DNA of 64,000 nucleotides from the NCBI GenBank assembly GCA_964019425.1, contig OZ025808.1, forward strand, positions 124,001-188,000, given 5' to 3'. Position 1 is the stretch's first letter, and every line of letters begins with the position of its first letter. Made by a program: the position numbers and the translations under genes. Below, one piece after another: positions 15,204-37,326 of this stretch. The notes beneath the pieces were generated by a model, which worked only from the letters and a program-made list of their open reading frames with translations, was not told the DNA's origin and made no database searches. Source of the DNA: Flectonema sp. DT1601. Lineage: Eukaryota > Euglenozoa > Diplonemea > Diplonemida > Diplonemidae.

Positions 15204-18200
15204 CTACGCGCCTAGCAAAATATTTGCGGCCTGTTTTTTTTTTTTTTTTTTTTTAAAAGTTTTTTTCAAAATACATCGAGGTACTCATAAACGTTGCAAT
15301 AGTTTCTCCGCTTCAATTACTAAAATAAAATAAAATATCATACCGCGGTAACACTGAGACAACTGGAGAGGATTTCACGCGCCGTTTCTCGGTCGACGTG
15401 GGGACAGAGTGCGACAAGGCTATCAAGCTCGTCTTCGTCAACGTGGTTGCCAGCTACCGGAGGAGGTAACGGTGCAGCAGGGGGTGGAGGAGGAACAACT
15501 CTTGGAGGTGGTGCCGGTGGTCGTAAATCACTTAAACTCGAATCATAAGATTCGTCATCACTGTCGTCATCATCATCATCATCATCATCATCTCTGACTT
15601 TATTATTTAAGTTATCACTTATACTATCGCTATCACTGCTGTCACTATCATCGTCTTTTCCAAATATATAACCCTGTACCTTACTGGGTGCTTGTTTTAT
15701 TATTGTTTCACTCTGATGTGAATATTTATCAGCTGCTACTAAAGCAAACAATCCCTTTCCCAGTTTTGGATTATTGTCTGAGTGATCTATTGAAGAAGTG
15801 ATTAAGGCTTCCAACCCAACTCTTGTAATTTCTGTGACGGTGTTGTTTCGAATATGAAATTCATGTCCACAGTGAGATACTTTTAAGAAATTAGGTCTTC
15901 GATCGATAACGTGAAGTATTTCAAATGGAATAACACGAGACGCTATTGGTCGTTCTTTGTAATCCTTATCAGTGAGACCATTCATATTGACAACACACAG
16001 AGATGATTCTTCTGAAGTAGTATTCGCTGATCCGATTAATTTCATTGCAGTGGTCGCAATAATGACATCTTCCTGATTGTTTATTACTTCCTCTTCCGTA
16101 ACGATACTAAACAGTCGACTTCCCAAACTAGTGAGCGTATCAAGTCTTTCGAGTCCTTCTTTTTCATTACCTTCTGAAGCAGCTACTAAGGCTCTGTGTA
16201 TTGAACTATTTATTACTCCGACTTCTATTATTTTCTTTGGAAACGTCGTAGCCAACTCCATCTGATGAGGTAATAAGAATTTTTCTTTTGCCCACTTGCT
16301 GTTGCATGCTACGAATGCGTACATCATTCTAGTGTCTTCTCCTTCAGGAAATCTTCCCCGAAGTGTTTCTCCATCAGGCATTTTAAACGACACTTCAATG
16401 TTACCTTCCTTAAGAAGGTCAGTGAATCCCTTGATCATTTTTTCATAAACTTGTTTCCTTTTTGCAGCTGCACGCTCAGCTTCTTCTCTTTCTTTCTGTT
16501 GCATGTGTTGGAATCGTTTAGCCTGCTCACGCATGCGAGTTGTTCGGTCTTCAGATTCCTCGTGATCTGGTGCTGCTGTAAAGTCAACTTTAAACTCAAT
16601 TTCTTCATTCGGATCTTCACAAATGAGTCGAACTGCAGCTGCTGGTTCGATTTTTACAACTTCGAATTGATGAGGTCTGTCTCCCTGAGAAGTTTTTAAT
16701 GTAATTGAAACAGTTGTATCTTCAGTCAGTGCTGCCATTCCCTTCAGTCCACTCTGTAAAGCACTTTGAGTAGACTCACAAAGAGCAGCATCCTGGTAAA
16801 ATGTTTTACTATGTGGTTGTAGTTTGACGAAGCTAATAGCAGGAACTTCTACACATCGAATCCTAACTGAGGATTTATCTGATAGGAATAAATCTCGAAA
16901 CACCCATTCTGGAAGGATCACATGTCCTGAAGGCAAGAACTGCTCAAACCCATTGGACGGTGACGTTCCGCAGTGACGTTTGCGACCATTCTCTGTGGTG
17001 ATCTCGAATATCAAGGGAAGGGAAACAGCATTTCCTCCGTAAATTCGATTTGCTTCATCACCAGGGAGGACGATTCTGTCGAAATCAGAATCAAGAAAGA
17101 TACCAAACTCCTCCATGGAAGTGGCTGAAGAGTGACAAATATACTTCCCGTCAAAGTCATTTTCAGTCGGCCATTCCATAGTTTCAAGTCGCTGGAGGAG
17201 GTTTGGTGCTTCGTTTGATTCGTAGCCTCGTATGTGACTGCTGTCTTTACATACCTCTGCAGTGCTACGTTCAAACATTGAGTGAATATCCTCTATAACT
17301 ACTGATAGCTCACAGTCAGGGTTCCACTTACCAGGTGTTAACATCCCATGAGCTATTCGTCCACCAAATGAAACCGGAGCTGATAAATATTTTAACCTAG
17401 GATTACGCAACGTAAACTCAGGAGGTACATTCGGATACCCACATCCAAAACGACAGTTCACTACAAGACAATCTCTAGACTCATCTTGAATACTACGAGC
17501 ATATTCAGTGAGCTGTAACTGCAATGGTGAATTAGCATCGAATTTCATTTTTATGGTCCAATCAGCAGCATTGTTTTCAGGTGTCATAGAGAGGTATGTG
17601 ATGTCACCCTTTGGATCAACTTTAGACTTTAAAGTGTAGTACTGATTTAGTATTAACCTGGCTACGTATTTTCTAGTAACTAAGTGTTGAGCATCTCGTT
17701 GTCTACTTTGTGTTGGAGGTCTGCGTTTTCGGCGGGTGACAGGGCCGTAGTTTTCAGGATCGAAATGGGTTTCGAATTCTGTACCTGCAACTTGTTCTGC
17801 TTGTGCTGCAGGTGTGTTTCCAGATCCTTCTGCGTATTCAAAATAAAATGACATCGCCAATTCTAAATTATAACGATTATCTTTTAGTCTCCTTTCAGAC
17901 TCTTCTGGTGACAATCCAGTGAATTGTACGAACTGAGTCACTCTATCAACACGATCAAGATAAAAGACGAATCCCTTACTGAGGTCTACTACTGTTGGAA
18001 TGTTGTTTGTTACTTCTTCAGTTGCTAATATAGTTTTTAAACTTCCAAGGATATACCCAAGTTTATCATGAGGTAGGATCACCTCATGTCCACTGTTAAT
18101 TGTTATCGTATCGATTCCGTTGTATTGGAGATCGTCACACGTCATTATTAGTTTATCATTTTGGACTACTTCAACAAAAGTACTGCTGTCTGTCACTCTT

Positions 18201-18529
18201 ATTTTAATATTTTCATTTGGACTTGGGTCTTCTATGACAATCTCTGTCGTGTCAGTTGGAACAGGGTGAACTAACACAACCGCTTCCGCTGCTTCAACAT
18301 TTCCTAACAAAAACTGAACGTCGCTTTTAAACTCGTTCTCATCATTCTCAATTGTGTACAACATTTTTCCTAATGATTGAAAACCTTCCCAATTATTATT
18401 TTTCATTGCTGTTAATGTTTCAGGTCTGGTGTTCGTGTCTCTGAGGAGTCGTGTTAGAGCAACGATGTCGACCTGTTTCGCATCTCCCTTTATTAAAGTT
18501 TCAACTATCTGTGTAGGAGTGTCGCTCAT
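15204..18529 (-). CDS. Multidomain Cdc48/p97-type ubiquitin adaptor: UBA, inactive E2, UFD1, UBX, CUE
   Basis: Exon 1 (18529-15344) and a 27-base exon 2 (15230-15204) are joined over a 113-base intron (donor GTATGA, acceptor ACAG), giving 1070 residues. The splice restores a complete CUE/UBA-like end, 'SVTA' plus 'AANILLGA'. Domains in order: an unrecognised N-terminal region; UBA at about 193-235 (VTQFVQFTGLSPEESERRLK); an E2/RWD fold at about 290-425 most like UBE2Q; the UFD1 N-terminal domain at about 505-660 (RKRHCGTS, ILPEWVFRDLFL, VSITLKTSQGDRPHQFEVVK); a charged helix at about 675-705; UBX at about 710-790 (EVSFKMPDGETLRGRF); an unassigned region; an acidic Asp run; Pro-rich linker; and CUE at about 1035-1070. 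At the E2 catalytic position the usual Cys is Ala393 (GGRIAHGMLT), so it should act as a ubiquitin-binding variant. Known UFD1 and UBX proteins recruit Cdc48/p97 to ubiquitylated clients; one chain holding both plus several ubiquitin binders is unfamiliar to me. Confidence 0.85.
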
Positions 18530-19070: not shown

Positions 19071-22000
19071 TTACTTTGGAGGTTGTAAGGCATCAGCACT
19101 ATTCCAAGGGTATTTTCTTGGCTTTCTACGCAAAGCAGGAGCAGCAACCGGTCGGCTAGCGATCGATCGACTTGACGTGACTGATGCTGCTCCATGAGCA
19201 ATACCAACAGAGCTCCTCACACTCGTATTTTGATAATACGGAGAAATTATAAACGGATCTCTGACTATTCTCCTTCGATAAGTACCATCAATCTGAGACG
19301 ATTGATGAACTGGAGAACTACCTGAACTCCATGAAATATCATCAGCTGGTGAAATAACTTTACTCAAACTGACAACACTGTCAGAGAACTCTGGAGATGA
19401 GTTCCGTAGAATACCAGCGTAGTTATTATTTGATTGGTGTTGTTGATCTCCACCAACAGAACTATCGTCATAGTCGGTAGTAAATAAATCTGTGACATTT
19501 AATGAAAAGCAATCGTCTTCTTCGTTGTCAGAGTTAGTTTTATAAGTGTCCTCCAGTTTTGAACTAATCGCTCGTGACTTTCTTATCGGAGGATCTCTTT
19601 TATGAATTTCAGTTACGTTGTTGTTGTTATTGGATTCGATGTTATCATACTTTTCATTTGATCTTTTAGTGAAATCGGTCCGATCGCAATGCCTCTTAAC
19701 TTTGTCTACAAAAGACTTATGACGTTGCTGAGTCTTATTGAGTGTGGCAACCAATTTCTTTTCTCTGGTTATATACTGTTGACTAACAGATTTCTTTATC
19801 CGACGAGCGCTGTATGAAACGTATGCGTCACTAATGATAGCGGCTGCGTAGTAGTGGGGAAGTGCAAATTCAGTTCGAAGGTACTGCACTGGAATAGCAG
19901 ACCCAACACGGTCGCTGACAGAGAAGCCGTCCTCAATCTTTAGATTAAATATTTTCAACACTAAGGATGACAATGTGTCATTATAACTTATCTCCCTGTC
20001 GATATTTAAAGGTATATGCATCTTACCCAATTCATTTAGTGTATGAACAACAGGAGATATATTACCAATTCCAATTGCGCTCCTCCAAAGCGGAGGCGGC
20101 AATGATCGAAGCAGTTTTATCCCGTCGCTAGCCTTTAGCAATCGAGACGCGTCAGGATCAAGGCGCAACCATCTGCTTTTAAATAGGTTAAAACCTTCTA
20201 GTTTTTCTGCAAGAATGAGTCCCCTACTCGTCTCGATGAATGACTCCAACAATATTGTTATAAACAAGTTGAGTGTGATAAAGGAACCGAGGAACATAAA
20301 AAGAACAAAGTAGAGCTTTGCCCAATGAGTGCCGCAGTTGTTATTATTTGGAGAACAATTAGGTGGCTGAACAGAACAACCTTCCATCATACTAACCCAT
20401 CCTTCAGCTGTTGAAGCTTGGTAGAGAGACACTAATGCGTAAGCGAGATTATCAAAATTTGTGTATTCATTAATTCCTTCGTTTTTTATAACATTTCCAA
20501 ATGCCGATACGCCAAACACTCCAAAGACAAAGAAAATAACAAACAAAAGCGTTCCTACATTTAAACACCCAGGAAGACACGCTATAAGAGTTTGAAATAG
20601 GAGTTCAACTCCCTTAGCGTTGCTAAACAGTCTGATCACCTTAGCACAACGAACAGCTCTGAGAGCTGCAATTGATGATTTATTAAAAAGAAATATGCAC
20701 ATCCAAGTTGCTATTGTCGTTGCAATGTCAAGACGATTCCAAGGATCGTGTAAGTATGTCCCTGGGTCAGTCGCCATGATCTTTAAAATTGCTTCAAGAG
20801 TAAAGTAAGACACAATAATATGAGAAACGACATGGACAGCTTTCTCGTGATCGTCTCCCATGTTGTAATAAGACGACGATAAGAATCCTAAATTCACTAA
20901 CACAATACTTATCGCAAAGTATTCATAATATCGATGACTAACTATTTGAAAGCAGAACTGTCTGGACTGATTCTTAGGAGGTTTTGGCTCAGCAACAAGT
21001 GGAAGTCTCAGAAGTACTTTCTGAGCTTGAATCCAACTACGTTGCTGATTTGAAATTAGTTGAAACCCCTGATTGCGTTCCTTAACGGTGTGAAATTGAT
21101 CGAATAAGACTCCAATAAATAAATTTGATATAAACAGCTGGCCAATCACAACAAATGATAAAAAGAACATCGCAAGAGGCCAGGAAGTATTTTCACCCGG
21201 CTTAACGGAATGATCGATTCCCGATGAATCCATCGCTCTGTACATTTGATCAGACCAGCCATCACCCAAAGCAATCTGCCAAAGAGATAGCATAGCATCC
21301 CCAACGTTGTCGTATCCCGTTGGTGGTAGTAACCATTTTCTTTCGAGAGTCACATTAGCTATTCCGAATGCGTTAGTGATGTTGGTTTCGTAAGTTCCAA
21401 CACACTCGTTTTTGTATTCCACATCGAGATCGTCACACATCCCAAGACGACCTTTCAATAACTGAACTCCAAGAACAGCGAACACAAACCAAACAAACAC
21501 ACAAAAACATAAAATATTCATCATTTGAGGTAAAGACATTAACAACGCCGTTACCGTCGCTCTCACTGTTGGAACAATAAGCAAAAGCCTTATAGCACGT
21601 AGGGATCGAAATGCCCTCAAAATCTCAACATCGGTCCATATTAGGGAAGTAGCTGATGATACGACAACAAAGAAATCAATTCTATTCCAGGAACACCTAA
21701 AGTATGCATCCTGTCCTAAATCATTTGTTGGAAAGACACCATAGGCGATCATGTACATCATCATTTCAATGGCGAATAGGACTGTAAATATATAATCTGC
21801 AACTAATAGGCCAATCTCTGCATCGTGGCTTTCTCTTGTGGCGGGGCAATCTAACGAATTTATAGCGCAGTCTAAAGCGATAAGTGCTGTTACTGCATGT
21901 TTGAATCTGTAGTCCTCTACTATTTTATAAACGGTGCCTCTGAATGGATCTAACGGTTCAAAGAAACACAAACTCTTACCATGAAGAACTGGAAGACCTG

Positions 22001-25000
22001 TTCTCTTTTGTTGTTCTAATTTTCTCAAATCTGCAGCTACTTGTAATTCCGATGCAGTTGATCCAAACCTATCAGACAAGACACACGCTAATAGAGCAGA
22101 ACCATGTTTTTGTCGTCTTATGAGTACCTCTCGTTGCCATTGTTTTAGTGAACGACGAGCTTGCATTCGGTATTGAGAATCGGCATCACCGGAGATGCCA
22201 GAGGGTGATGATGAACTACTATCTTGATTATTAGATTCAAAGAAAACAACACGAATTGATTTATTACTGTCACTACTCTTACTGCTGTTGGCTTCCATGT
22301 TTCCAATTTGAGAATCTGGTTGGCTGTAGGCATCACAGTTTATGTGATCTGGTTGTGAATACGCAGTTGAGTCAGAATGGCTATTCCATTGTGAATTCGA
22401 GCTATTGCTATCAATAGTTTCCATGTCCGGTTGATTTTCGAATGATTGCTGTGCGGTACTTGTTAATGATGATAAATTTAAAACAGGAATGTGATTTATG
22501 GCTTTAGTAACATCCATATTATCCTGTGAGTGAATAATCTTTGCTTCAAACAACTCGCCATCCGTAATAGTTTCAAGTGCGATCGGTACGTCTAATTCAT
22601 CACCAATCTTTTTATAAAAGAATACCTCAACAGTATCCAAGAGACCAAGAGCATTTCGAATTCTTCCCTTTGGAACTTCCTCAGATTCCCATTCTTTAAC
22701 ATAAATAGGAATTGTATTACCAAAGGTTTTAACAAATACTCGTTTAGGTTCTGTTAAATCACTGCTATTGTCATTGTATTCCGCATCAATGGATTCTAGG
22801 TGTGTTCGTGCTGCTGCGAGGATTGCTATCAATTGTTTTGTTTTAGTTGTTACTACTTCGTATTGCTTTATTCGAGAATTAGCTAGTAATGAAGTATACT
22901 GTAATTCATTTATGTTGTGGGGGATGCATCCCAAGTCACAGACTGATCTAATCCAAGAGAGAGTTTGAAGAAGTGAGTCTGTTGGTAATTGAATTGGCGG
23001 GTCGTTATCTACAAAAGTTGGACTCAAGTACTGCTCAACGTCTAGTGCGATTGAACCACAGTCAGTTATATAAACTTCGTTAAGAGTAAAGACTTGACCA
23101 CGTGTTTGAATAGTTAAATTAGCATGATGGTTTCCCATACTTCCTGAACTCGGTCTGAGTGACGACCTCAAAATAGAAAATCTCCTCGGTATTTCTTCAA
23201 GCATTATCTCTATGGTGCTATTTCTTTGAATGCATTGCGTCTTCAAAGTTTTCCCACCTTCTGGTTCCGGAAGATGAATTTTCACATCCAGATCGATTCC
23301 CGCCGAGAGTAATAATTCATGCTGTTTTGATAACATAGTTCTCCGTTCACGGACTAACGATGTTGTGGTGTTGGTGTCAAGAGTGTCGCAGTCTGACGAT
23401 TCGATTTCACTGTTTCTGTCGACATTATCTAAACAGTCTTGCACTGCTGATGATAAGATGCTACTAATTTGCTCAAGATCTCTCAGTAATTTCAGTTTAT
23501 GAGGAAACGTAGCGATATCAATATACAATCCAGTATCGGCACTGCGATCACCATCGAATGCTTCTATGTCATTGTATAATGATAACAGAGGATGAACTTT
23601 TTGCAACGTAATAGAAATCTTATGGCTATAGTCATTTATCTGACTTGAAGAGAAACCGATACCGGATTCGTTCTTATCGAGTAGTAAAGAAGCTGTGTGT
23701 TCATCGAACGATGTATTTGATGAAGTAGAGATGCTATCGGAGTCTACATCATCGTTATGTTCTTCACTGATTCCCGCTGGGTTATATATTGCGAAGGATT
23801 CTATCAATAGAGCTACCATAAGGTTGATTACAATACAATTTCCGATAACAAATATCACGAAAAAGAAGAAAGCAGATGCCCCTCCATGCTTATTCATCGT
23901 CGCAGTCGCAATAGCCATCCAATTATCTCCAGTTAGAATGATGAAGATTGTTAAAGCAGAGTTCCCAATACCGTGAAAATTCGATCGAAGACCTTCTAAT
24001 CGTCCTTCACCAGAACCAAACGCAGCAACACCAAACGTCGCAGCGACCAGTATCAAAATCATTAAAATGAGGACTAAGTTTAGCACCCCAGAAAAGGCAT
24101 GCAAGATTGCGTCTAAAAGAACTCTTAACACACTCCATCTGTTAACAATTCTTATAACCCGAGCAGTTCTAAAGACACTGAAAGTGAAGGCACCTGCGCC
24201 TGTTGCCATTTCTGGTATTGATAACAACACCAATATCAAGTCCAGAATGTTATACGGGTCATGTAAGTATTCTATCTGTAAGGCTGCTATCTTAAGTGTT
24301 GCTTCAATGATAAATATCCAAGCACATGTTAAGTTAATTATTGAAACAGTTGTTTCTGTAGTAGTGTCAATGCCGTAGTGATCGATTCCAAGAGCTGCGA
24401 CGTTAACTAATGTCACAAATAACATTATAGCTGTAAATATAAAGTGTTTTACTAAGCCTTGAAGGTGCCATTTTAAACGAACGCACAGTGCGGAAGGTGT
24501 GTCTTGTTCAGCGGCAACTGAACGGATTCTTCGTTCTGGTTCAATAGCGTCGTCATCAGTTGGAATATTGTCTTCTGATTGCTCGTCGCTAGTGTTGTCT
24601 GGTTCTGTTGTTGCTGTTGTTGGTTTTTTCTTGTCTTTTTCTACTTCAGAAGCTTCCACTCGATGTTGCTGTTCCTTCTGATCATCACCCTTTATTACGT
24701 CCCTTCGAATTTCAGCAACAGCATCCACCACTAGACTATGAATTTCAAACTGATCATCATTCACTGTGTCGTCATTTATTTTACTTTTTTTCTTAACTTC
24801 AAATTTCATTCCCGTTCCAAGCAAGAGTCTCCTATGAGGGAATAAGACAGCCAGTGGTCCGTGCATTAGACTACTTAAGAAAATGTTACAGACTCCATAG
24901 TGTTTGATATTCATTGATTCAGGTCTGATTTGAGTGTTGTCACGTGCAGTTCGAACTTTAGCAACGAGAACAGCGATTACTAAATTAAAGAATATCTGAG

Positions 25001-26042
25001 ATCCTAAGAAAGTTATTATCACAAAGAAGATCCAGGCTCCCCATCCAGAGACTTGTTGTGCTTTGAGCATGTCCTGATGCCACTCATCGAGTGTTACTAA
25101 CTTAAATATTACTAACAAAGCGTGGGCGACGTTATCATAATTTAAATATACTCCACCAAACTGATCAGTATCAACTCCACAATATTGAGATACGAAAACT
25201 CCATTTGTCTCAATCGTGCAGCTTCGACCAGCAACAGCACTGTTGCTGCAGTGATTCGTATCATTTTGGATTAGAACGCTTTTTGTTGCATTTGAACCAT
25301 TGATGGGATCAGACAGAAAGGCAAAGCAACGTTGATGCATTGAACCTTTCCATATTTCAACACTTATAAGAGCGAGTATCCACATAAAAACTACTAAAAC
25401 AAAGAAGAAATCAACCATAGTAGTCATGCACTCCACGAGAGCTGAAATGACAACGGCGACGCTGCGTAAGCTGCGCATTGATCGAAGGGGTCGTAGGAAT
25501 CTTATCAAGCGAATAGTACCCAATTTAGCTCCTCCATGAAAGAGTTCAACAACACGAGCTACAACAACAGAGAAGTCGAGGATATTCCATGGGTCTCTAA
25601 AGTATGAATGTTTATGAAATACGATTCCTAATGCGGTAAACTTTAATCCGATTTCCACAATGAAGAATGCTGTCGCAATGTAGTCGATGATATCAAACAC
25701 TCCACTCACAGAACTGTTAGTAATTGTTTCATCAGTCATCACGAGTGCTACAGAGCTAAGAAATATCCAAAACAACACCGTAAACCTAAACACGTTACTA
25801 TCGACTAATTTAACACACCAACAACGTACGTGAGATTTCGGATCTACACAACCTCCTATCTGACTTGTGTAGGTATAGTCAAATGTTATTTGCTCGACAT
25901 CACAAACTCTTGCAATCAAACTCCGTCGTACTTCACTAAGACCAACCCTCCGTATTACCAATTGATTTGTGTCAAAGTGAGGGTCTTCTCTAGCAGGGGC
26001 ATCCTGCAGTGTTACAAGTGCTGCAGCCCTTCCGATAGGCAT
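19071..26042 (-). CDS. Four-domain voltage-gated cation channel alpha subunit
   Basis: A single exon of 2323 residues, typical of Cav/Nav-type channels in length and layout. Four six-helix domains are visible. Voltage-sensor S4 helices are RLIRFLRPLRSMRSLRSV (DI), FRTARVIRIVNRWSVLR (DII), LRAFRSLRAIRLLLIV (DIII) and LRAVRCAKVIRLF (DIV, fewer charges). The pore loops read TLDEW, TGDNW, LGDGW and TAEGW, so the selectivity ring is Asp319/Asp706/Asp1594/Glu1880. By family knowledge an all-acidic ring means calcium selectivity (EEEE in high-voltage-activated Cav, EEDD in T-type, DDDD in CatSper), and this combination matches none of those. The DII-DIII linker is very long (about 600 residues, Ser-rich). 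The C-terminal tail (about 370 residues) has an IQ-like basic helix (AYVSYSARRIKK). It is probably a plasma or ciliary membrane calcium channel. Confidence 0.93.
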   Translation of the reverse strand: MPIGRAAALVTLQDAPAREDPHFDTNQLVIRRVGLSEVRRSLIARVCDVEQITFDYTYTSQIGGCVDPKSHVRCWCVKLVDSNVFRFTVLFWIFLSSVALVMTDETITNSSVSGVFDIIDYIATAFFIVEIGLKFTALGIVFHKHSYFRDPWNILDFSVVVARVVELFHGGAKLGTIRLIRFLRPLRSMRSLRSVAVVISALVECMTTMVDFFFVLVVFMWILALISVEIWKGSMHQRCFAFLSDPINGSNATKSVLIQNDTNHCSNSAVAGRSCTIETNGVFVSQYCGVDTDQFGGVYLNYDNVAHALLVIFKLVTLDEWHQDMLKAQQVSGWGAWIFFVIITFLGSQIFFNLVIAVLVAKVRTARDNTQIRPESMNIKHYGVCNIFLSSLMHGPLAVLFPHRRLLLGTGMKFEVKKKSKINDDTVNDDQFEIHSLVVDAVAEIRRDVIKGDDQKEQQHRVEASEVEKDKKKPTTATTEPDNTSDEQSEDNIPTDDDAIEPERRIRSVAAEQDTPSALCVRLKWHLQGLVKHFIFTAIMLFVTLVNVAALGIDHYGIDTTTETTVSIINLTCAWIFIIEATLKIAALQIEYLHDPYNILDLILVLLSIPEMATGAGAFTFSVFRTARVIRIVNRWSVLRVLLDAILHAFSGVLNLVLILMILILVAATFGVAAFGSGEGRLEGLRSNFHGIGNSALTIFIILTGDNWMAIATATMNKHGGASAFFFFVIFVIGNCIVINLMVALLIESFAIYNPAGISEEHNDDVDSDSISTSSNTSFDEHTASLLLDKNESGIGFSSSQINDYSHKISITLQKVHPLLSLYNDIEAFDGDRSADTGLYIDIATFPHKLKLLRDLEQISSILSSAVQDCLDNVDRNSEIESSDCDTLDTNTTTSLVRERRTMLSKQHELLLSAGIDLDVKIHLPEPEGGKTLKTQCIQRNSTIEIMLEEIPRRFSILRSSLRPSSGSMGNHHANLTIQTRGQVFTLNEVYITDCGSIALDVEQYLSPTFVDNDPPIQLPTDSLLQTLSWIRSVCDLGCIPHNINELQYTSLLANSRIKQYEVVTTKTKQLIAILAAARTHLESIDAEYNDNSSDLTEPKRVFVKTFGNTIPIYVKEWESEEVPKGRIRNALGLLDTVEVFFYKKIGDELDVPIALETITDGELFEAKIIHSQDNMDVTKAINHIPVLNLSSLTSTAQQSFENQPDMETIDSNSSNSQWNSHSDSTAYSQPDHINCDAYSQPDSQIGNMEANSSKSSDSNKSIRVVFFESNNQDSSSSSPSGISGDADSQYRMQARRSLKQWQREVLIRRQKHGSALLACVLSDRFGSTASELQVAADLRKLEQQKRTGLPVLHGKSLCFFEPLDPFRGTVYKIVEDYRFKHAVTALIALDCAINSLDCPATRESHDAEIGLLVADYIFTVLFAIEMMMYMIAYGVFPTNDLGQDAYFRCSWNRIDFFVVVSSATSLIWTDVEILRAFRSLRAIRLLLIVPTVRATVTALLMSLPQMMNILCFCVFVWFVFAVLGVQLLKGRLGMCDDLDVEYKNECVGTYETNITNAFGIANVTLERKWLLPPTGYDNVGDAMLSLWQIALGDGWSDQMYRAMDSSGIDHSVKPGENTSWPLAMFFLSFVVIGQLFISNLFIGVLFDQFHTVKERNQGFQLISNQQRSWIQAQKVLLRLPLVAEPKPPKNQSRQFCFQIVSHRYYEYFAISIVLVNLGFLSSSYYNMGDDHEKAVHVVSHIIVSYFTLEAILKIMATDPGTYLHDPWNRLDIATTIATWMCIFLFNKSSIAALRAVRCAKVIRLFSNAKGVELLFQTLIACLPGCLNVGTLLFVIFFVFGVFGVSAFGNVIKNEGINEYTNFDNLAYALVSLYQASTAEGWVSMMEGCSVQPPNCSPNNNNCGTHWAKLYFVLFMFLGSFITLNLFITILLESFIETSRGLILAEKLEGFNLFKSRWLRLDPDASRLLKASDGIKLLRSLPPPLWRSAIGIGNISPVVHTLNELGKMHIPLNIDREISYNDTLSSLVLKIFNLKIEDGFSVSDRVGSAIPVQYLRTEFALPHYYAAAIISDAYVSYSARRIKKSVSQQYITREKKLVATLNKTQQRHKSFVDKVKRHCDRTDFTKRSNEKYDNIESNNNNNVTEIHKRDPPIRKSRAISSKLEDTYKTNSDNEEDDCFSLNVTDLFTTDYDDSSVGGDQQHQSNNNYAGILRNSSPEFSDSVVSLSKVISPADDISWSSGSSPVHQSSQIDGTYRRRIVRDPFIISPYYQNTSVRSSVGIAHGAASVTSSRSIASRPVAAPALRRKPRKYPWNSADALQPPK

Positions 26043-29401: not shown

Positions 29402-32264
29402 TTACGTAGATGTGTCTGCAGCTGGAGCTTTCTCTGGCTCTGGTGCTGGCTCTTCTTGACTTGGAGCAGCAACAGGAGTCTCCACAACAGGGGGTTGCTC
29501 CTTCACTTCAACAGGTGTTTCCTTTGGTGTTTCTACTAATGGTGGTGCCTCACTGACAGGTTCTTCTTCAACAGCTGGTTTTGTTTCCTTCTTCTCACTC
29601 TCCACTGGTTTTTCAACAGGCTTTGGTTCCTCGGCAACGACAGCAGCAGGCTGTCCCTCAGCAGGCTGAGATGACTGCGGCTGTGGCTGTTGCACCTTCT
29701 GCTGTCTCTTACTGCGCTCACTTCCCTTTTTAGCAATCGCCTGCAGAGCATCTAACGTGTTTCTCAAGTCCTTCTGAGATGTTAGTTTTTCATCGACGAG
29801 GCATTTCTGTACGATGCTGCCTGCGAATTCAACAACAGTTCGTTCGTTGCTCTCCTGTTTGTTATTTTATAGATCCCTCCTTCAGTTGTTGTAAAGTTCC
29901 TAATTCAAATTATGAACGAAAGTCATACCCGAAGAGCTTCAGTGAGCTGAGCGTCAAATTTCTGAACATCAATAAGACGGAGGCGGATGAAATTAACCGC
30001 AATGTCTTTGTTTTTCCTGTTTTTTTTTGTTAAATATAATGAATGAAGATTATTGTTTTCCTAACAGTTTTTAAGAAAATAAAGTGTACAAACCATTTCA
30101 TTGGAGATGCCAGAAACAAAGATGTTAACTCAGCAGTAATTTTCTCGGAATTCTTCTCGCGAACAGACTGAAGTATGAAGAGACAAATTTCATTGAGAAG
30201 CATAGCAACGTGAAGACCATGCTGATCTTTGTTTTTCTGATGTACAGAAATATCTTCACCCAATTGATAAACTCTTTGGAACGTATACTTGGCAAAGGCA
30301 ACAGCTGTGTCTTCCTTAATAAGTTGAGGAATGCAACAAAGTGATTTACGAATATTTTCATGATGCGTCGACTGAGTCCCCTTCGTAAAGTTTGGATGAG
30401 TCAAACTGAGAACATGATCTTCTGGAGGGTTCTTCTCACGGTAGTGTTTATCAGTTTCTGATTCTATCGCTTTGAGTACAGTTGTCAACTTTTCAACAGC
30501 CTTGTGTTGTTCAGGTAATGAAGTAGTACTCATTTTTGAGAATTCTTTGTACACATTTAAGTGTTTTGATGTTAATCCAGTTTTTGGTCGATGGTTTGCA
30601 GGAAGCGTTCTTACGAAGTCAGATTTCTCAGTTGGATCCCAAGATTTTCCCTCACGACGGTCTCTGAAGTGAATTTCCAGTATTTTATCCATTTCACGGG
30701 AGGCTTCTTCAACAGCAACCTTTTCGATGATTGAAACACCAAAATCTAAGTTTTCCCTGACCAAGGTATCAATTGGACCTGCAGGAACTTGTGGCATTGC
30801 CTTCGTCAAATTACCTTTCATTGTAACCTTCAACATCTCCTTACAAGTTGCTATTGCTAAGTGTGCTGCCAAACACTTCACCATTTGCTGTGCTGCAGTC
30901 TTCATCTTAGAAGTGTCTTGTTCAGTAGCAAAGTCCTTGATGACCTGTTTTTTATTATGTTTAGATAAGTAAACGTTTTCTTCAATGTCACTCTCTTTAA
31001 CTAAAATATATAACAAGAAGCATACCAATTCCTTAGTAGTCGTCTTCGCTATAAAGATACTGCGTTCTGCAACAGCGTCAATCAGTTCTCCAAGAGACTT
31101 GTCAACTGCATCGACAACAAATTGTTTCATTTCACGTGTAGCGCGGATGTTGTCAGCAAAGCTGTCGGACTTGTAACGTTCCTATTTTTGTTTTTTGAAG
31201 TTAAGAGAAATGAATGAAAATTATTTATATTGTGTTTTTCTTATTTTTTCATTTAAATTTTTAAAAATGCATACCCTCCAGTTCTCTCTTCCCGGGGTGG
31301 ATGATGTCCACTTTGGGTCTTCACCTTCGTTACTGGCCTGCCATTTGCCGGAATCACTCTTCGGTTTGGTGGCAGCTGCAGGAGATGATTTTATTGACTG
31401 CTGCTGAGTCTGCTTTACTTGTTGCTGCTGTTGTCCGAGAGTAGGTCCTGCTGGACGTTGTTCCCTATCAGTTCTCTCAACCTGAGGACCACCTTGAGAT
31501 TGTTTATAAAGAGCGACTACTAATTGTTTCTGTTCTGGTGATGAGACTCTTAGATTCTCAATTGGGACGTTCATATTCTTACATAAGACTTCAACTTCAA
31601 ATTTAAGAGACAATTTGATATCTTGTAACTCATAGTAAATATCACCCATCACGTAGAGTAGCTTCATAGTCCAAGGATTTGGTGGTTTGAATACTGGACT
31701 GGTAGTACAATGCTCCAACACCTTAGAAACAAATGGCATAACGTATCTCATATTACCGTCACCAATAGAAGTTAGTAGCATATCTCTGATGTCGAGAATT
31801 CTACTCATGATTGGTTTGTTCCTTCCGATAGTTTGAATTCCAAGCCAAGATGCTAAATTCTTAAATAAAGACTTTTCTGATGCCTCCTTTGCTTTGCTGG
31901 TATTCAACAACGCCTTCACTGCTGCAACAGTAGCTTCAAGAACTGATGTGTCAAGGTCCCTGCTTCGAAGCTGCTCCATCATTTTGACGTATAACTTGTG
32001 AAAGTTTGGTTCCAAACTAGTTCTCTTTGTTACTAAATAATTAGCAAAGAAAGGATAGTATTTCGGGTCAAGTGTCTTCTGTAACTCACCACACAGGTGA
32101 ACCAAGTTAGAAGAGTCCAAGTTATTTAGAATAAATGCAACTGAGTCCTGAACCTTTACATCTGGTTGAGGGAACTGTGATCCGTAACCTTCTAAAGTTG
32201 AGATATCGTAAATGTGAGATGAGCCAATGTCCCTGTCCTTCATTGCTTGGGCTTTTTGAGCGGC

Positions 32265-32297
<33 letters not shown>

Positions 32298-34850
32298 CTG
32301 CTGCTGTGCTTGCTGTTGTTGTTGCTGTTGTTGTTGCTGCTGTGCCTGCTGTTGTTGAAGCTTCTGTTGCTGGAGACGCTGAGCTGCTTGTTGAGCTTTT
32401 TCATCCTTAGGAATGAGATATTGCTCTATACCGGGTATCCTAACTGTGATGTCTTTAACTTTCTCTCTTAACATTCCACAGTACTGAGGCCATTCCTGAA
32501 GTCTAAACATGTATTTCTCAAGAGCCCATTGAGAGAACTTTACTAGATTCTCATGAGCATCAGGACTACCTAAGTTTATAACAACAAAACCAAGTGCGTC
32601 AAGAAGTCTTCTGTCCTCAAGAGCTTTGTGGGCGACAATTCCTCCAAACAGCTCTGCAGTAATTTTAAGCTCAGCAGGAGGATATCTGCTCAGAAATTTG
32701 AACTCTTCAAACAGATTTTGAACCATACACAAATAAACTTGATGCTCATTACTGTTTGGTTTCGCCTTCTTGTATCTCTTTAGCATTTCAATCAGATCTT
32801 TGAGTTGCATTTTCCCGCTGTAGATCTTAGCGAAGTTATTATTCGCTTCCTCTTCAACCTTCTCAGGGAATTCAACTTGTGAGAACTGTTTAAGGATTGC
32901 CTCCGGGTAGGGATCTTTACATTTCAAACAAGAGATGTTGGTCTTTTTCCCGTCGAGTTCAGTCTTTATGTATCCAGACAAACAGGTAGTGCATGTAAAG
33001 CAGGGTTGTTCTTCACTGCCAGCTGCCTGTCGGCACACATGTCCGTTGGATTCTTTGTTTGGGGTTTCAAAACAAAGAATACAAAGTTGCTGTGGCTGTG
33101 CTGCAGCTACTGCCGGTGTTGGCTGGGCCGGGGCTGGTGTTGGCTGGGCTGGGGCTGGCGAAGGTGTTGGTGTAGGTGCTGGCTGCTGTGGAGTTGCAAC
33201 TTCTGCCGCCACCGGAAGCGGAAATGGCTCTTCTGGTCCGTCATCAGTGTTGTCTACTTCCGCCTCTAAGATTTCCATCACCTGTTCGATTGTTGGACGT
33301 TTGCTTGTCTCTTCTTTGCACCTTTCTGCTGCAGAAGTTAGCGCATCTACTTTTTGTCCCTGATTTTCATCACTAATTCTCATGTCAGGTAACTGCAAAT
33401 TCATATCCATCGTGACCTCATCATGAAGACTAGAAATGGAACCGGTGATAATCTCCTGGAAGATTGTACCTAAGGCGTATAACTCAGTCTTTGGTCCAAA
33501 CACTTTTGTTTTCCTGTATTCAGGACACATGTACATTGGGCAACCGAAAGCTTCTTCCTCACCATCGAAATCAATGAAACGAGAAACGCTACCCCACATT
33601 AACTTTGGAGACAAAGCTCTTCCACGAAGGATAATACTTGAACAAGCTAAGTCACGGTGATATGTGGGCGTCTCAAAGGAATGCAGGTAGTGAACAGCAC
33701 GTGAAATTCCAAGGGCAATACTTATTCTGGTTGGCCAAGAAAGATTCTTCGCTAACTCATCCTGAATTAAGTGAGTGTCAAGACATTTTTCCGATGGGGG
33801 AGTGTGGTAGAGAATAAATAATTTGTTGTTTGCTAATTCACTGCAGGCGATTGCCTTGAGGACGTGCTTGTGTTGGTAGTCACCCAAGAGACGTACCTCG
33901 CCAGACATCTTTGGATGAGTTGCAACGGCGACTGTGTAGTTGTTTGGTGGGTGTGAACGTCTGCAAATACCAAAAGAAGATTTACAAAACACATCATCAT
34001 CGTTCATAATTTTAGCAAAGTACGATTCTGGTACTGTTGCTAAGCTACCGTCAGCGCATGCTTTCTTAATCTGCTGATCTGGGTCTACAGACGGTGCTTG
34101 GGTGGGAGATGCATCACGGCTGGGGCCGTCATTCTGACTACTGTCGAAATCTTTTAAAGTTTTAACCAAATCACTTAATGATTGCCTTGTAGCAACTTCT
34201 CCAGTACTGTTTGTTATAATTTCTGATAGAAACTCCGAATGAGCGGCGTCTTCCGGCAGACGACCATCATTTGCCTTCTTAATCTCAGAAACAATATTTC
34301 CAAACGCAAGAACTTCATCATCCGCAGCATAGTCAGCTTTTGGCTCAAACAAAGAAGAGAATCCACCCCACAATAGCATAGGAGTTCCCCCGCTAATAAT
34401 AATATTCTTAGTGGTCAAGTCTCCATGAAGTGCAGACAAGCTGTGAAGGTATTCAATACCCTGAGCAATACCAGTTAGTAGGTCAACACTCTTACTCCAG
34501 GTAAGCTCATTTAAAAGGCTAGGAGTAGTAAGGTGAGCGTCAAGTGTTAAATCATTTTCACAGCTCATGGAGTATGCTACCAGACAGTTGTTGTCTTTTA
34601 ATTCACTGCATGCTGCGGGCCGTAAAACATTAGGATGGTTTATCTTTGATAAAATGGAGAGTTCAGCATCAGTCTTTGTTGCAGTCAGTTTTGCTACTGC
34701 GCAGTCTCCTTCCTTTCCTTTGCATAGGCTTGTAAAAACACCAGCGACAAGAACATCCTCTGAGGTCTGACTCTCAAGAAATTCAGATCCGATCGTGGCA
34801 GTAGGCGTGTCTTTCTTCAAGGCCTCCTTCCATGCCTCTTCGTCAGACAT
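29402..34850 (-). CDS. NOT1 (CCR4-NOT scaffold) fused to tandem pseudokinases and a RING-like module, five exons
   Basis: Exons 34850-31275, 31181-31026, 30944-30094, 30016-29929 and 29854-29402 join in phase into 1707 residues. The start is the ATG of MSDEEAWKEALKK; an in-frame ATG 66 bases upstream precedes a likely acceptor. Residues about 30-270 and 300-560 are two kinase-like domains: HGDLTTKNIII and HRDLACSSIIL replace HRDLKxxN, and 'WGG' or 'WGS' stands where DFG belongs, so both look inactive. About 587-655 is a Cys-rich RING-like module (CILCFE ... CFTCTTC ... CLKCKDPYPE). From about 665 the protein follows CNOT1: the HEAT domain that binds TTP in animals (LFEEFKFLSRYPPAELKITA), a Q-rich spacer (about 820-865), the MIF4G domain that binds CAF1 (about 882-1105, YYPFFANYLVTKRTSLEPNF, FKPPNPWTMKLLYVMG), DUF3819 that binds CAF40 (about 1195-1345) and the connector (RLIDVQKFDAQLTEAL). 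It then ends in a Pro/Glu-rich tail without the NOT2/NOT3-binding domain. Cytoplasmic mRNA deadenylation is the expected setting. Confidence 0.9.
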
Positions 34851-35140
34851 ATTGTGTGTCTGTACCTCAACTCCCCAGTTTGGTACCTGATTAATGAAAT
34901 TATATGTGATTACCATACTAAATACATCACATCACAAGAGCTGCATCACACGATAGATTTCAATAATAAGTTAATAATTGTCATGTCGAACATGATTAAA
35001 TTAAAACACTTCACAAATCAGTATAGTTAGTTTGGAGGAAAGTCAAACATATGAAATAATATCGAAAACATACTCACACGACATACTTTGCGGGCTAGGT
35101 AATTGAAGCAATAAAAGGAAAAATAAATAAATTTTTTTTT

Positions 35141-36938
35141 TTAGTCTTGCTTGCTGTCAGTGGGTGACTCAGAAGAAGCATTTTGTTCGATTTTTTCATC
35201 ATCAGAATCGGGCGTCTCCTTGTCATCAACGTCTGTTTCTTTGTATGATGATATACCTAATAAAACAGCCTCAGGATCATTGACCATCTGTTCGATATTT
35301 TCCGGATCTGGTAGTTTACTCAAAAAATTCTGAGGTTCAAAATCGACTGCCCACTCTTCTGCTTCAACTTCAACTTCGTTCTTTGTTTTATCGGGTGCTT
35401 CACCTGTTGTATTATTATGTAATATGATTATACTTTTTTTTATAAATAGGAAGAAAGAATTAACACAAACCTCTTAATTGAACTTCCACAGCCATAATTT
35501 CGTGAAACATCTTCTCAGCCCTGACCATCGCAATGTCTACATCAGAGGTACGAGTTGCTGGACATCTCCAAATTGTATTACTTTCAGTAGATGTAGATTT
35601 GATGTTTGGTTGATGGACAGATGGAGTCAAAAAGAACGATCTGTGATATAAAGAAACGTCTTTTGACGTTTGAAGTTTTCCGCTTTCGTCATCAATGAAA
35701 TGATTTATTATTACTGACTGCAACTCCTCAAGAGGAATCTGTGATGAGAAGTGAATAGTAATAACTCCTTTAGGACAGCTGTTTGTTTCAGAAGTTAGTT
35801 CAAATATTGTAATAGCCTTACTTGGTATACACTTCTCTTCAGAGATAGAATGCGGTGCGATCACCGCAGTGATAGTATGTGGATACCAACTCTCATCAGG
35901 CTCTCCATCATTTGACTCTTCAGTTTGCTGTTTCTTAAACAAAGATCCGTCGGCTATTAAAACACAACGAGATTCAGAAATAGCTTCCTTTGATTGATTG
36001 TTTATCTTAGCTGAGTCAGAAGTAATAAAATGCTTGCAATTAAATTGCTGTCCAACACAACACGTGACACCTGAAACACTACCAGAATCTGTAAGGTGAA
36101 CCTCACTTATGAACCTTCGAAGAATGCAAGAAATACCTTTATATATAGCACACACTCTAGACATTGCTTGTGGGAGTTCACTAAGACCGTAACTGCTGTA
36201 TATCATGTCTGTTGGACCATATCGACCAACTGACTCTGCTGTTTTCTGAAGTGATAAAACAGCTTCCTCAGTCGTCATTGGATCGTCAATTGTCTGCATC
36301 CGAAGAATCGAATACTTCACTAAATCAGAAACCTTTTTATTCATCTTAAGCTGTTCAGTAAGGTATTGACTAATAGGTTTTTGTTTGAACTCTTCAGGTG
36401 CTCCAGATTCCAATAACTGAAATAACTGCATCAGACGACGTTTTTCCATCGGAGCTAAATCCTTACTTTTAAATATACCAGACTTACCTGATGGGAGGTC
36501 TACGAATGATGACTTCTCGTGATGAAAGACAAGTGATCGATCAATAAATTTGAATTCGAGATACTTTCCAACAGAACTTTCGATAAGAGTGTCAACATAC
36601 TTTCCTCCTGAGAGGAGTCCTTTGGGACTGAGATCGATATTCCATCCACGTTCTGTTGGGATGTCGATGTATTTCTTAGTATCTGCGCCTTCAGCAGTGA
36701 TGAATCGACTGTATTGTTGCCAAGTAAGAGAGGCACACTCACCTCCGTAAAACTCATTCTCATCAATATGAAGAACTCTCATTCCACTGCGTGCTAATGA
36801 TCCAGCCAGGATCGATTCGACTAAACCAGAACCATCAACAACAACATCGAAATCCTTTTCATCAATCTCTACATCATTAATGGGGGTTCCAAATCTGTTG
36901 AATTCTTCCTCTACTTTCTCTTTCTTACTTTCCGTCAT
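35141..36938 (-). CDS. Rab escort protein / GDI family, two exons
   Basis: Exon 1 (36938-35471) and exon 2 (35403-35141) are joined over a 67-base intron (donor GTTTGT, acceptor ACAG), giving 576 residues. The start MTESKKEKVEEEF is chosen over an upstream in-frame ATG, which lies before a pyrimidine-rich acceptor. The FAD-like N-terminal signature of the REP/GDI family is present: DVVVDGSGLVESILAGSLAR, RVLHIDENEFYGGECASLTW, then GWNIDLSPKGLLSGG. The conserved SYGLSELPQAMSRVCAIYKG block of the Rab-binding platform follows. The length (GDI is about 450 residues) and the YILR-like helical region favour REP, which presents new Rab proteins to geranylgeranyl transferase II. The C-terminus is acidic (about 520-576). 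GDI cannot be fully excluded. Confidence 0.85.
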
Positions 36939-37326
36939 AGTTGTTATTAGAATGCTGTTGGGGAAAAAAAAATACAAAATAAAATAAATTATTATTTTAA
37001 ATACAAAAATATTCCTTGCTATGCGTCCTCTAGCCTTGTTCAATAAGAAGAAGCTAATATGAGGTGTGCACTTGACAAGCTAAAGCCACCCCTTAGGTCT
37101 GGCAAACGTTTTTGATACTTTGCGTGGCTGTCGGTACATCAACAAAAAAAAAAAAAAAAAAAAAAAAAACAGATTTTTATTTTTCATGAGACAGAAACAG
37201 CAAACATCTTTTTTTTTTTTTTTTTTTTTTTTTTTCTTTATCTAATGCCAGTGATGACCCAATAAGCACGTGAACAAAGTTGATAAGAGACGTTGATCTA
37301 CTCATATGCTCGCGAATGATACTGAT
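36939..37326. other. Intergenic with an A-run and a T-run
   Basis: No gene. It holds the pyrimidine tract and acceptor of the Rab escort gene, an A-run at about 37143-37169 and a T-run at about 37209-37235. Confidence 0.6.
36955..36975 (-). promoter_or_regulatory. Pyrimidine tract plus acceptor before the Rab escort gene
   Basis: Minus strand TTTTTTTTTCCCCAACAG ends 17 bases before the chosen ATG. It decides that start over the longer frame and fits a 5'-UTR intron or a trans-splice acceptor. Confidence 0.45.

Follow-up and report, generated by a model that had tools for sequence, protein, structure and literature searches.

NOT1-K, a Duplicated Diplonemid NOT1 Predicted to Carry Two Pseudokinases and a RING-Like Zinc Module in Place of Its N-Terminal Arm

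Introduction

In the machinery that shortens mRNA tails, NOT1 usually serves as a single large scaffold whose domains follow a fixed order. This report concerns a gene, here designated NOT1-K, on the minus strand of a 64,000-nucleotide stretch of DNA (the window) from the diplonemid Flectonema sp. DT1601 (contig OZ025808.1, positions 124,001–188,000). An original prediction, made from the letters of the DNA, had described one unbroken exon encoding two kinase-like domains, a Cys-rich module and the HEAT and CAF1-binding MIF4G domains of NOT1, an arrangement that the open frame and Pfam matches confirm.

Gene Structure and Domain Organization

The frame of exon 1 is free of stops from position 34931 to 31221, which amounts to 1236 amino acids from stop to stop. 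With ATG 34850 assumed as the start, the exon (31275–34850) comprises 1192 codons up to the first splice site (GT at 31274) and contains both kinase domains, the zinc module and two NOT1 domains; an ATG at 34916, in the same frame and 66 bases upstream, is a possible alternative start. Splice sites inferred from genomic DNA define four GT-AG introns of 93, 81, 77 and 74 bp and a predicted spliced protein of 1707 amino acids with its stop at 29402. DUF3819 begins in exon 2 (31026–31181; 52 codons), exon 3 (30094–30944) contains the remainder of DUF3819 and the start of the connector, and exon 4 (29929–30016) lies within the ARM/connector region. One intron (30945–31025) falls inside DUF3819 and two others (30017–30093 and 29855–29928) inside the ARM/connector region. 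A Pro/Glu-rich tail with the stop codon (29402–29719) closes the gene, and no Not1 C-terminal domain follows it.

Kinase domain 1 (34146–34739; approximately residues 38–235) matches Pfam PK_Tyr_Ser-Thr with an E-value of 1.4e-11 over residues 59–153 and aligns to Nod-factor receptor 5 (NFR5), and kinase domain 2 (33258–33983; approximately residues 290–531; Pfam E 5.7e-14) aligns to SymRK. The zinc module (32898–33083; residues 590–651) comes next, followed by the TTP-binding domain (32418–32882; residues 657–811; PF16417, CNOT1_TTP_bind, E 2.1e-37), a Gln-rich linker seen in the translation (32238–32405; residues 816–871) and the CAF1-binding MIF4G domain (31542–32174; residues 893–1103; PF16415, CNOT1_CAF1_bind, E 4.2e-73, 245.8 bits where the cut-off is 33.4). 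The later exons supply DUF3819 (30651–31133; residues 1209–1342; PF12842, E 1.6e-36), the NOT9-binding region, and the ARM/connector (29720–30392; residues 1429–1602; PF25097, ARM_Cnot1, E 8.2e-19; PF23590, NOT1_connector, E 2.1e-10). Of the Pfam families anticipated for this gene, kinase, CNOT1_TTP_bind, CNOT1_CAF1_bind and DUF3819 were matched, and Pfam analysis of the spliced C-terminal part agrees with the earlier view that later exons add DUF3819 and the connector, the latter for most of its length.

The kinase/zinc/NOT1 junctions all lie inside exon 1, and exon shuffling at today's intron boundaries is therefore unsupported as a route to the fusion. Third-position GC across the exon varies little (0.31–0.44 over eight bins), so that composition shows no seam. 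Chance is ruled out by the Pfam E-values together with two relatives of identical domain order. The joining of two kinase domains, a zinc module and NOT1 is a genuine in-frame fusion.

Occurrence in Other Species

The same fusion, which the original prediction had proposed looking for in related protists, occurs in two further proteins. A search with exon 1, in which 8000 candidates were scored, gave 20 matches, only one of which has both kinase and NOT1 domains. This protein, P0001, is a EukProt Trinity protein of 1657 amino acids that is marked complete; it aligns to 98% of exon 1, where 38% of residues are identical, and shows the same domain order. A search with residues 586–815 gave nine matches among 397 candidates, two of them carrying kinase and TTP-binding domains: P0001 and P0043, a protein of Diplonema papillatum (class Diplonemea, Euglenozoa) deposited as 'Cysteine-rich receptor-like protein kinase 40, partial'. 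The order of two kinase domains, eight cysteines and TTP-binding domain is common to the window protein, P0001 and P0043, and the last cysteine is separated from the EANN motif of the TTP-binding domain by 23–26 residues in all three. None of 22 matches to the kinase module as query (8000 candidates scored) has a NOT1 domain, and 19 of the 22 are plant-named. No description of a pseudokinase–zinc–NOT1 protein was found among the matches listed in a search of titles and abstract beginnings in the open-access literature, in keeping with the earlier remark that no described protein of this architecture was known.

P0001 has some features of its own. A search of the window for its extra N-terminal segment of ~110 residues gave no match better than E 2.0. 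Its kinases 1 and 2 (residues 115–672) are 73% identical, and the pairs of the window protein and P0043 are divergent; later duplication, conversion and an assembly effect are candidate explanations for the similarity of the P0001 pair.

Relationship to Other NOT1 Proteins

A search of the host genome (89.5 Mb in 92 contigs) with exon 1 revealed NOT1 domains at two further places, on contigs C3 (NOT1-A) and C42 (NOT1-B). Both are full-length NOT1 genes with long open reading frames and an N-terminal arm, and Not1 C-terminal domains were detected nowhere else in the genome (two matches, of 437.9 and 264.2 bits). The idea that NOT1-K is the organism's only NOT1 was rejected because of these two genes. 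NOT1-B (loci L011 and L012) is divergent though full-length, and the host diplonemid thus has three NOT1 genes.

NOT1-K resembles CNOT1/NOT1 in that its TTP-binding, MIF4G, DUF3819 and connector domains are arranged as usual and in that it groups with the NOT1 proteins of its own lineage, but it has pseudokinases and a zinc module for an N-terminal arm and lacks the C-terminal Not1 domain. The N-terminal HEAT arm of NOT1 is the dock for NOT10/NOT11, and the C-terminal Not1 domain is the dock for NOT2/NOT3. The latter domain (PF04054) has no match in NOT1-K or elsewhere on contig C29, the two in the genome being those on C3 and C42. No match to CNOT1_HEAT was found in NOT1-K, where the kinases and zinc module occupy the position of the N-terminal arm. 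This profile is weak in the lineage (E 0.047 for the host's own NOT1-A, P0002; E 2.7e-5, under the cut-off, for P0003), so that position, and not the profile, decides that the arm has been replaced.

Residues that contact CAF1 in human NOT1 (K1208, P1209, H1212, K1218, V1251 and P1257), taken from a published study (PMC3510486) and located on the human sequence by counting, correspond to K, P, S, R, V and P in the window protein and to K, P, G, K, V and P in P0001; four of these six positions, all mutated in human NOT1, are identical in the window protein. In human cells, V1251R and the double substitution P1209Y+P1257Y are reported to abolish CAF1 binding, and the triple substitution K1208A-H1212A-K1218A is reported not to (PMC3510486). 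Judged from these residues, CAF1 docking looks intact in NOT1-K.

The TTP-binding domain of the window protein is 58% identical to that of NOT1-A (154 positions) and 32% identical to that of NOT1-B. A tree of the TTP-binding and MIF4G domains (19 rows), which leaves out P0002 (wholly contained in the host's own NOT1-A), P0011, P0019 and P0020, pairs the window protein with P0001 (100/99) and places both with NOT1-A and P0003 in a group of four (97/97), with NOT1-B next at weak support (81/67). In a tree of the TTP-binding domain alone, made from 15 hand-picked rows and a shorter alignment, the window protein, P0001 and P0043 form a clade (100/99), and NOT1-A stands outside a group comprising the fusions and the NOT1-A-like P0003, P0044 and P0046 (93/94, not starred). 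As read from these trees, the fusion stems from a duplication of NOT1 within the lineage that is older than the split of the species carrying the fusion; the NOT1 branch that was its source is unsettled because the two trees put NOT1-A differently. At the level of sequence, these data show NOT1-K to be a duplicated NOT1 that has exchanged its N-terminal arm for pseudokinases and an eight-Cys module and has lost its C-terminal NOT domain.

Pseudokinase Domains

Both kinase domains had been described as lacking DFG, with the motifs HGD…WGG and HRD…WGS, and these motifs were upheld. Kinase 1 retains the Asp of HGD and the following Asn, has WGG instead of DFG and is missing most of its activation segment, and kinase 2 retains the HRD Asp but has Ser instead of Asn, WGS instead of DFG and CPEY instead of APE. 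Among the six kinase domains of the fusion proteins from three species, none has the DFG Asp (WGG and WGS in the window protein, WGG in both kinases of P0001, FAG and WAG in P0043); the catalytic-loop Asp is present in all six, and the Asn five residues further is kept in three. At the β3 Lys position both window kinases have Ala (VAVA in kinase 2; CAVA in the other, compared with VAVK in NFR5) in an uncertain register, as another alignment puts a Lys adjacent to this position in window kinase 1 and kinase 2 of P0043 is ambiguous. Other kinases of the host genome were compared at 21 loci, read by pattern on one strand near the match, with one extra chance match in L054 dropped. Nine loci showed a catalytic loop, and since all nine keep the Asp (eight DFG, one DLG), loss of the Asp looks specific to the fusion and not general to the kinases of this genome. 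Both kinase domains of NOT1-K are thus classed, by sequence, as putative pseudokinases.

The nearest chains in the PDB are plant receptor-like kinases and IRAK4. A profile of four of the six fusion domains matched SymRK (6m0u) with E 2.6e-28, window kinase 2 alone matched it with E 7.9e-16, and the best match of window kinase 1 alone was NFR5 (8s79; E 8.4e-12). Unlike these closest chains, NOT1-K has no DFG Asp and no receptor part and is joined to NOT1. In a kinase tree of 10 rows, the six fusion kinases stand together against four plant kinases (100/99); their inner order is not resolved, long branches meet, and duplication of kinases 1 and 2 before the species split is not separable from duplication after it.

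The Eight-Cysteine Module

The eight cysteines between kinase 2 and the TTP-binding domain (residues 590–644) are spaced C-x2-C-x12-C-x10-C-x2-C-x2-C-x17-C-x2-C. All eight are invariant in the window protein, P0001 and P0043 and follow a RING-type ligand order, which sustains one part of the original prediction of a RING-like module; the other part fares less well, as no curated RING profile was matched. The window module hits no Pfam RING family even at E-values up to 10 and matches NCD3G alone (E 0.0095). None of the three members scores above the cut-off of a RING model; among them, zf-RING_4 appears twice (best E 0.0031) and NCD3G likewise twice. Matches to solved structures are marginal (RNF144A, E 0.056; PINCH LIM, E 0.031; MDM2, E 0.048). 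The loop between the third and fourth cysteines is 8–10 residues long in the three proteins, compared with 1–3 residues in a usual RING. The module is compatible with a C4C4 RING that has an extended loop; it is called RING-like here, and E3 ubiquitin ligase activity is possible.

A loose likeness to RING1 of the RBR ligases had also been proposed, and this did not hold: Pfam finds no IBR or second RING in exon 1, and the TTP-binding domain directly follows the zinc module. RBR identity was rejected for want of an IBR/RING2 match. Pfam detects no RRM in exon 1, and the NOT4 layout of RING plus RRM is thus not reproduced. Single-sequence searches of the host genome revealed no convincing second copy of the module: one returned the window locus and three places on contig C70 (E 0.0016–0.017), which lie on a Pro/Thr-rich linker and not on the zinc module, and a further search scored one candidate, the window locus itself.

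Partner Proteins Encoded by the Host

NOT4 is a RING E3 ligase of CCR4-NOT, and the original prediction had drawn a contrast between a separate NOT4 in animals and fungi and a built-in counterpart here. That contrast was not borne out. Contig C56 encodes a separate NOT4-type protein (zf-RING_4, 70.4 bits; an RRM-like part was recognized by eye in the translation), so that the fusion is no replacement for NOT4, a role that was accordingly rejected. The host differs in this respect from trypanosomes, whose CAF1-NOT complex is described as lacking homologues of NOT4 and CCR4 (PMC3877767).

A CAF1-type open reading frame lies on C73, matched in two pieces of 51.3 and 31.9 bits, with YPYVAMDTEFPGVVARP read by eye; higher-scoring CAF1-family matches on C5, C61, C83 and C22 resemble PARN or TOE1 on visual inspection. 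NOT9 (C51, 375 bits) and NOT11 (C10, 60 bits) are encoded, as are NOT2/3/5 C-termini at three places. The genome search for Pan3_PK gave no match in any control genome either and says nothing on the presence of PAN3.

Proposed Function and Alternative Explanations

NOT1-K is read here, with moderate confidence, as a NOT1 duplicate that provides an alternative mid-scaffold for docking CAF1 and NOT9, with a PAN3-like head of pseudokinases and zinc module that recruits partners or answers signals. Its MIF4G domain, with conserved CAF1-contact residues, would bind the CAF1 deadenylase, DUF3819 would bind NOT9, and the TTP-type domain may take RNA-binding adaptors. Because the corresponding domains are absent, the normal assembly of NOT10/NOT11 or NOT2/NOT3 should be beyond this protein, and it would form a reduced complex without these arms. 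The pseudokinases would have no catalytic role and would serve as interaction or nucleotide-switch modules, guiding the deadenylase to particular mRNAs or responding to a signal, so that the head might serve NOT1-K as the PAN3 pseudokinase serves PAN2. The likeness to PAN3, as that protein is described (PMC4158885), lies in a pseudokinase and a zinc finger in the service of a deadenylase; PAN3, however, belongs to the PAN2 complex as a protein of its own, whereas NOT1-K carries the NOT1 domains itself. Pan3_PK (PF18101) has no match in exon 1, and the kinases are nearest to receptor-like kinase and IRAK chains instead.

Several observations weigh against this proposal. With two full-length NOT1 genes present, the host could perhaps do without NOT1-K, and the conflicting positions of NOT1-A in the two trees bear on where exactly the duplication arose. 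The P0043 sequence is incomplete and stops behind its TTP-binding domain, so that fusion to MIF4G and DUF3819 is shown for two species only. P0001 diverges from the window protein at the third intron of the window gene and ends ~35 residues later, which suggests a retained intron or an alternative end. Loss of the activation segment of window kinase 1 could mean decay. If so, the kinase part might be the decaying passenger of a gene fusion in which the NOT1 part alone matters, and kinase identity between the species is indeed 25–45%, whereas that of the TTP-binding domain is 62–68%. This is nonetheless improbable, as the kinase and zinc parts stand in the same order in all three proteins and the eight cysteines and catalytic-loop Asp are kept throughout. 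Far less credible still is an artefact, in which neighboring genes were joined by assembly or gene prediction or are divided by an internal trans-splice site. Diplonemid genes are described as polycistronic and trans-spliced (PMC10161547), so that a leader acceptor within the gene might, in theory, yield a NOT1-only mRNA; an assembly error is refuted, however, by 1236 codons without a stop across the junction and by the same junction in the EukProt transcript and the D. papillatum protein.

Two other explanations assign NOT1-K a different activity. As a ubiquitin ligase with a working RING, it would use its NOT1 part to target CAF1/NOT9 complexes or messenger ribonucleoproteins and its pseudokinases to bind a substrate or regulator, thereby placing a NOT4- or RNF219-like activity within the scaffold. 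RNF219 is a RING E3 ligase reported to bind CCR4-NOT through NOT9 and to inhibit deadenylation (PMC8660800), and it shares with NOT4 and NOT1-K a zinc module, possibly RING-type in NOT1-K, that is physically tied to the NOT1/NOT9 core. The invariant potential zinc ligands in RING order and the marginal zf-RING_4 matches in two members also favor a ligase. RNF219 and NOT4 are separate proteins, however, whereas the module of NOT1-K is built into the scaffold and its RING identity is unproven; the NCD3G match in two members (the only match of the window module), the lack of any member over a RING cut-off, the marginal similarities to LIM, MDM2 or RNF144A, the long loop and the separate NOT4-type gene all count against a ligase, which we consider a possible but unlikely principal role. 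The other explanation, less likely again, is that NOT1-K is a competitor or decoy that titrates CAF1 and NOT9 off the two full scaffolds and so stabilizes mRNAs. Loss of the N-terminal arm and C-terminal NOT domain with retention of the CAF1/NOT9 docks would suit such a role, and there is a precedent in Plasmodium NOT1-G, a duplicated NOT1 reported to have its own essential role and to preserve mRNAs (PMC8562791). NOT1-G resembles NOT1-K as a duplicate with a specialized role beside the original, but NOT1-K has foreign N-terminal domains, whereas the abstract on NOT1-G mentions none (PMC8562791). A decoy would leave unexplained why two pseudokinases and a zinc module are retained in three species.

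The proposal of a docking scaffold with a pseudokinase head can be extended to a second kind of CCR4-NOT, in which one polypeptide combines a tandem switch of receptor-like kinase/IRAK-type pseudokinases and an integral RING E3 ligase with a NOT1 core that binds CAF1 and NOT9 but lacks the NOT2/3 and NOT10/11 arms, thus wiring signaling into mRNA decay. The original prediction had likewise suggested a direct tie of signal sensing and ubiquitin ligation to deadenylation; this bolder form is tentative and, as a whole, doubtful. In D. papillatum, transcription is described as polycistronic, essentially all mRNAs as carrying a spliced leader, and the signaling families as expanded, with many predicted protein kinases (PMC10161547). 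With genes arranged in polycistrons, diplonemids would exert much of their control on RNA, and this lineage is likely to control many genes posttranscriptionally. The main text of the D. papillatum genome paper contains no mention of NOT1 or of words beginning with deadenyl- (PMC10161547). A conserved paralogue of the proposed kind would show that CCR4-NOT is open to rebuilding as a distinct complex addressed by signals. NOT1-K offers a testable case for a pseudokinase role in deadenylation, and the deposited Diplonema protein P0043 receives a better reading than that of a receptor-like kinase.

Genomic Surroundings

All 14 open reading frames of at least 260 amino acids in the window are on the minus strand. 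A Rab GDP-dissociation-inhibitor-type gene (35460–37043, minus strand; PF00996, E 4.5e-47) lies upstream of NOT1-K on the same strand. One open reading frame at 15338–18529 (minus strand) has UBA-like, UFD1-type and UBX matches, a p97-cofactor-like combination, and another at 19071–26042 (minus strand; 2323 amino acids) has four Ion_trans stretches, like a four-repeat voltage-gated channel.

A 23-base part of the diplonemid spliced leader has 717 matches in the host genome, compared with none for a reversed control. Tandem arrays of spliced-leader and 5S rRNA genes are found on contigs C16 and C20 (for example, L043 and L044). Repeats are spaced by 623 bp on C16 and by 610 bp on C20; in the C20 array a GT donor comes after the leader, and all repeats that were read contain a 5S rRNA gene. 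Together with the leader matches, the shared strand of the window's larger open reading frames and the D. papillatum relative, these arrays mark the host as a diplonemid. At L038 and L042, dispersed leader copies directly abut transcript-like sequence (...TTATTGGGACCACACAAAATG...) and look like retrocopied mRNAs.

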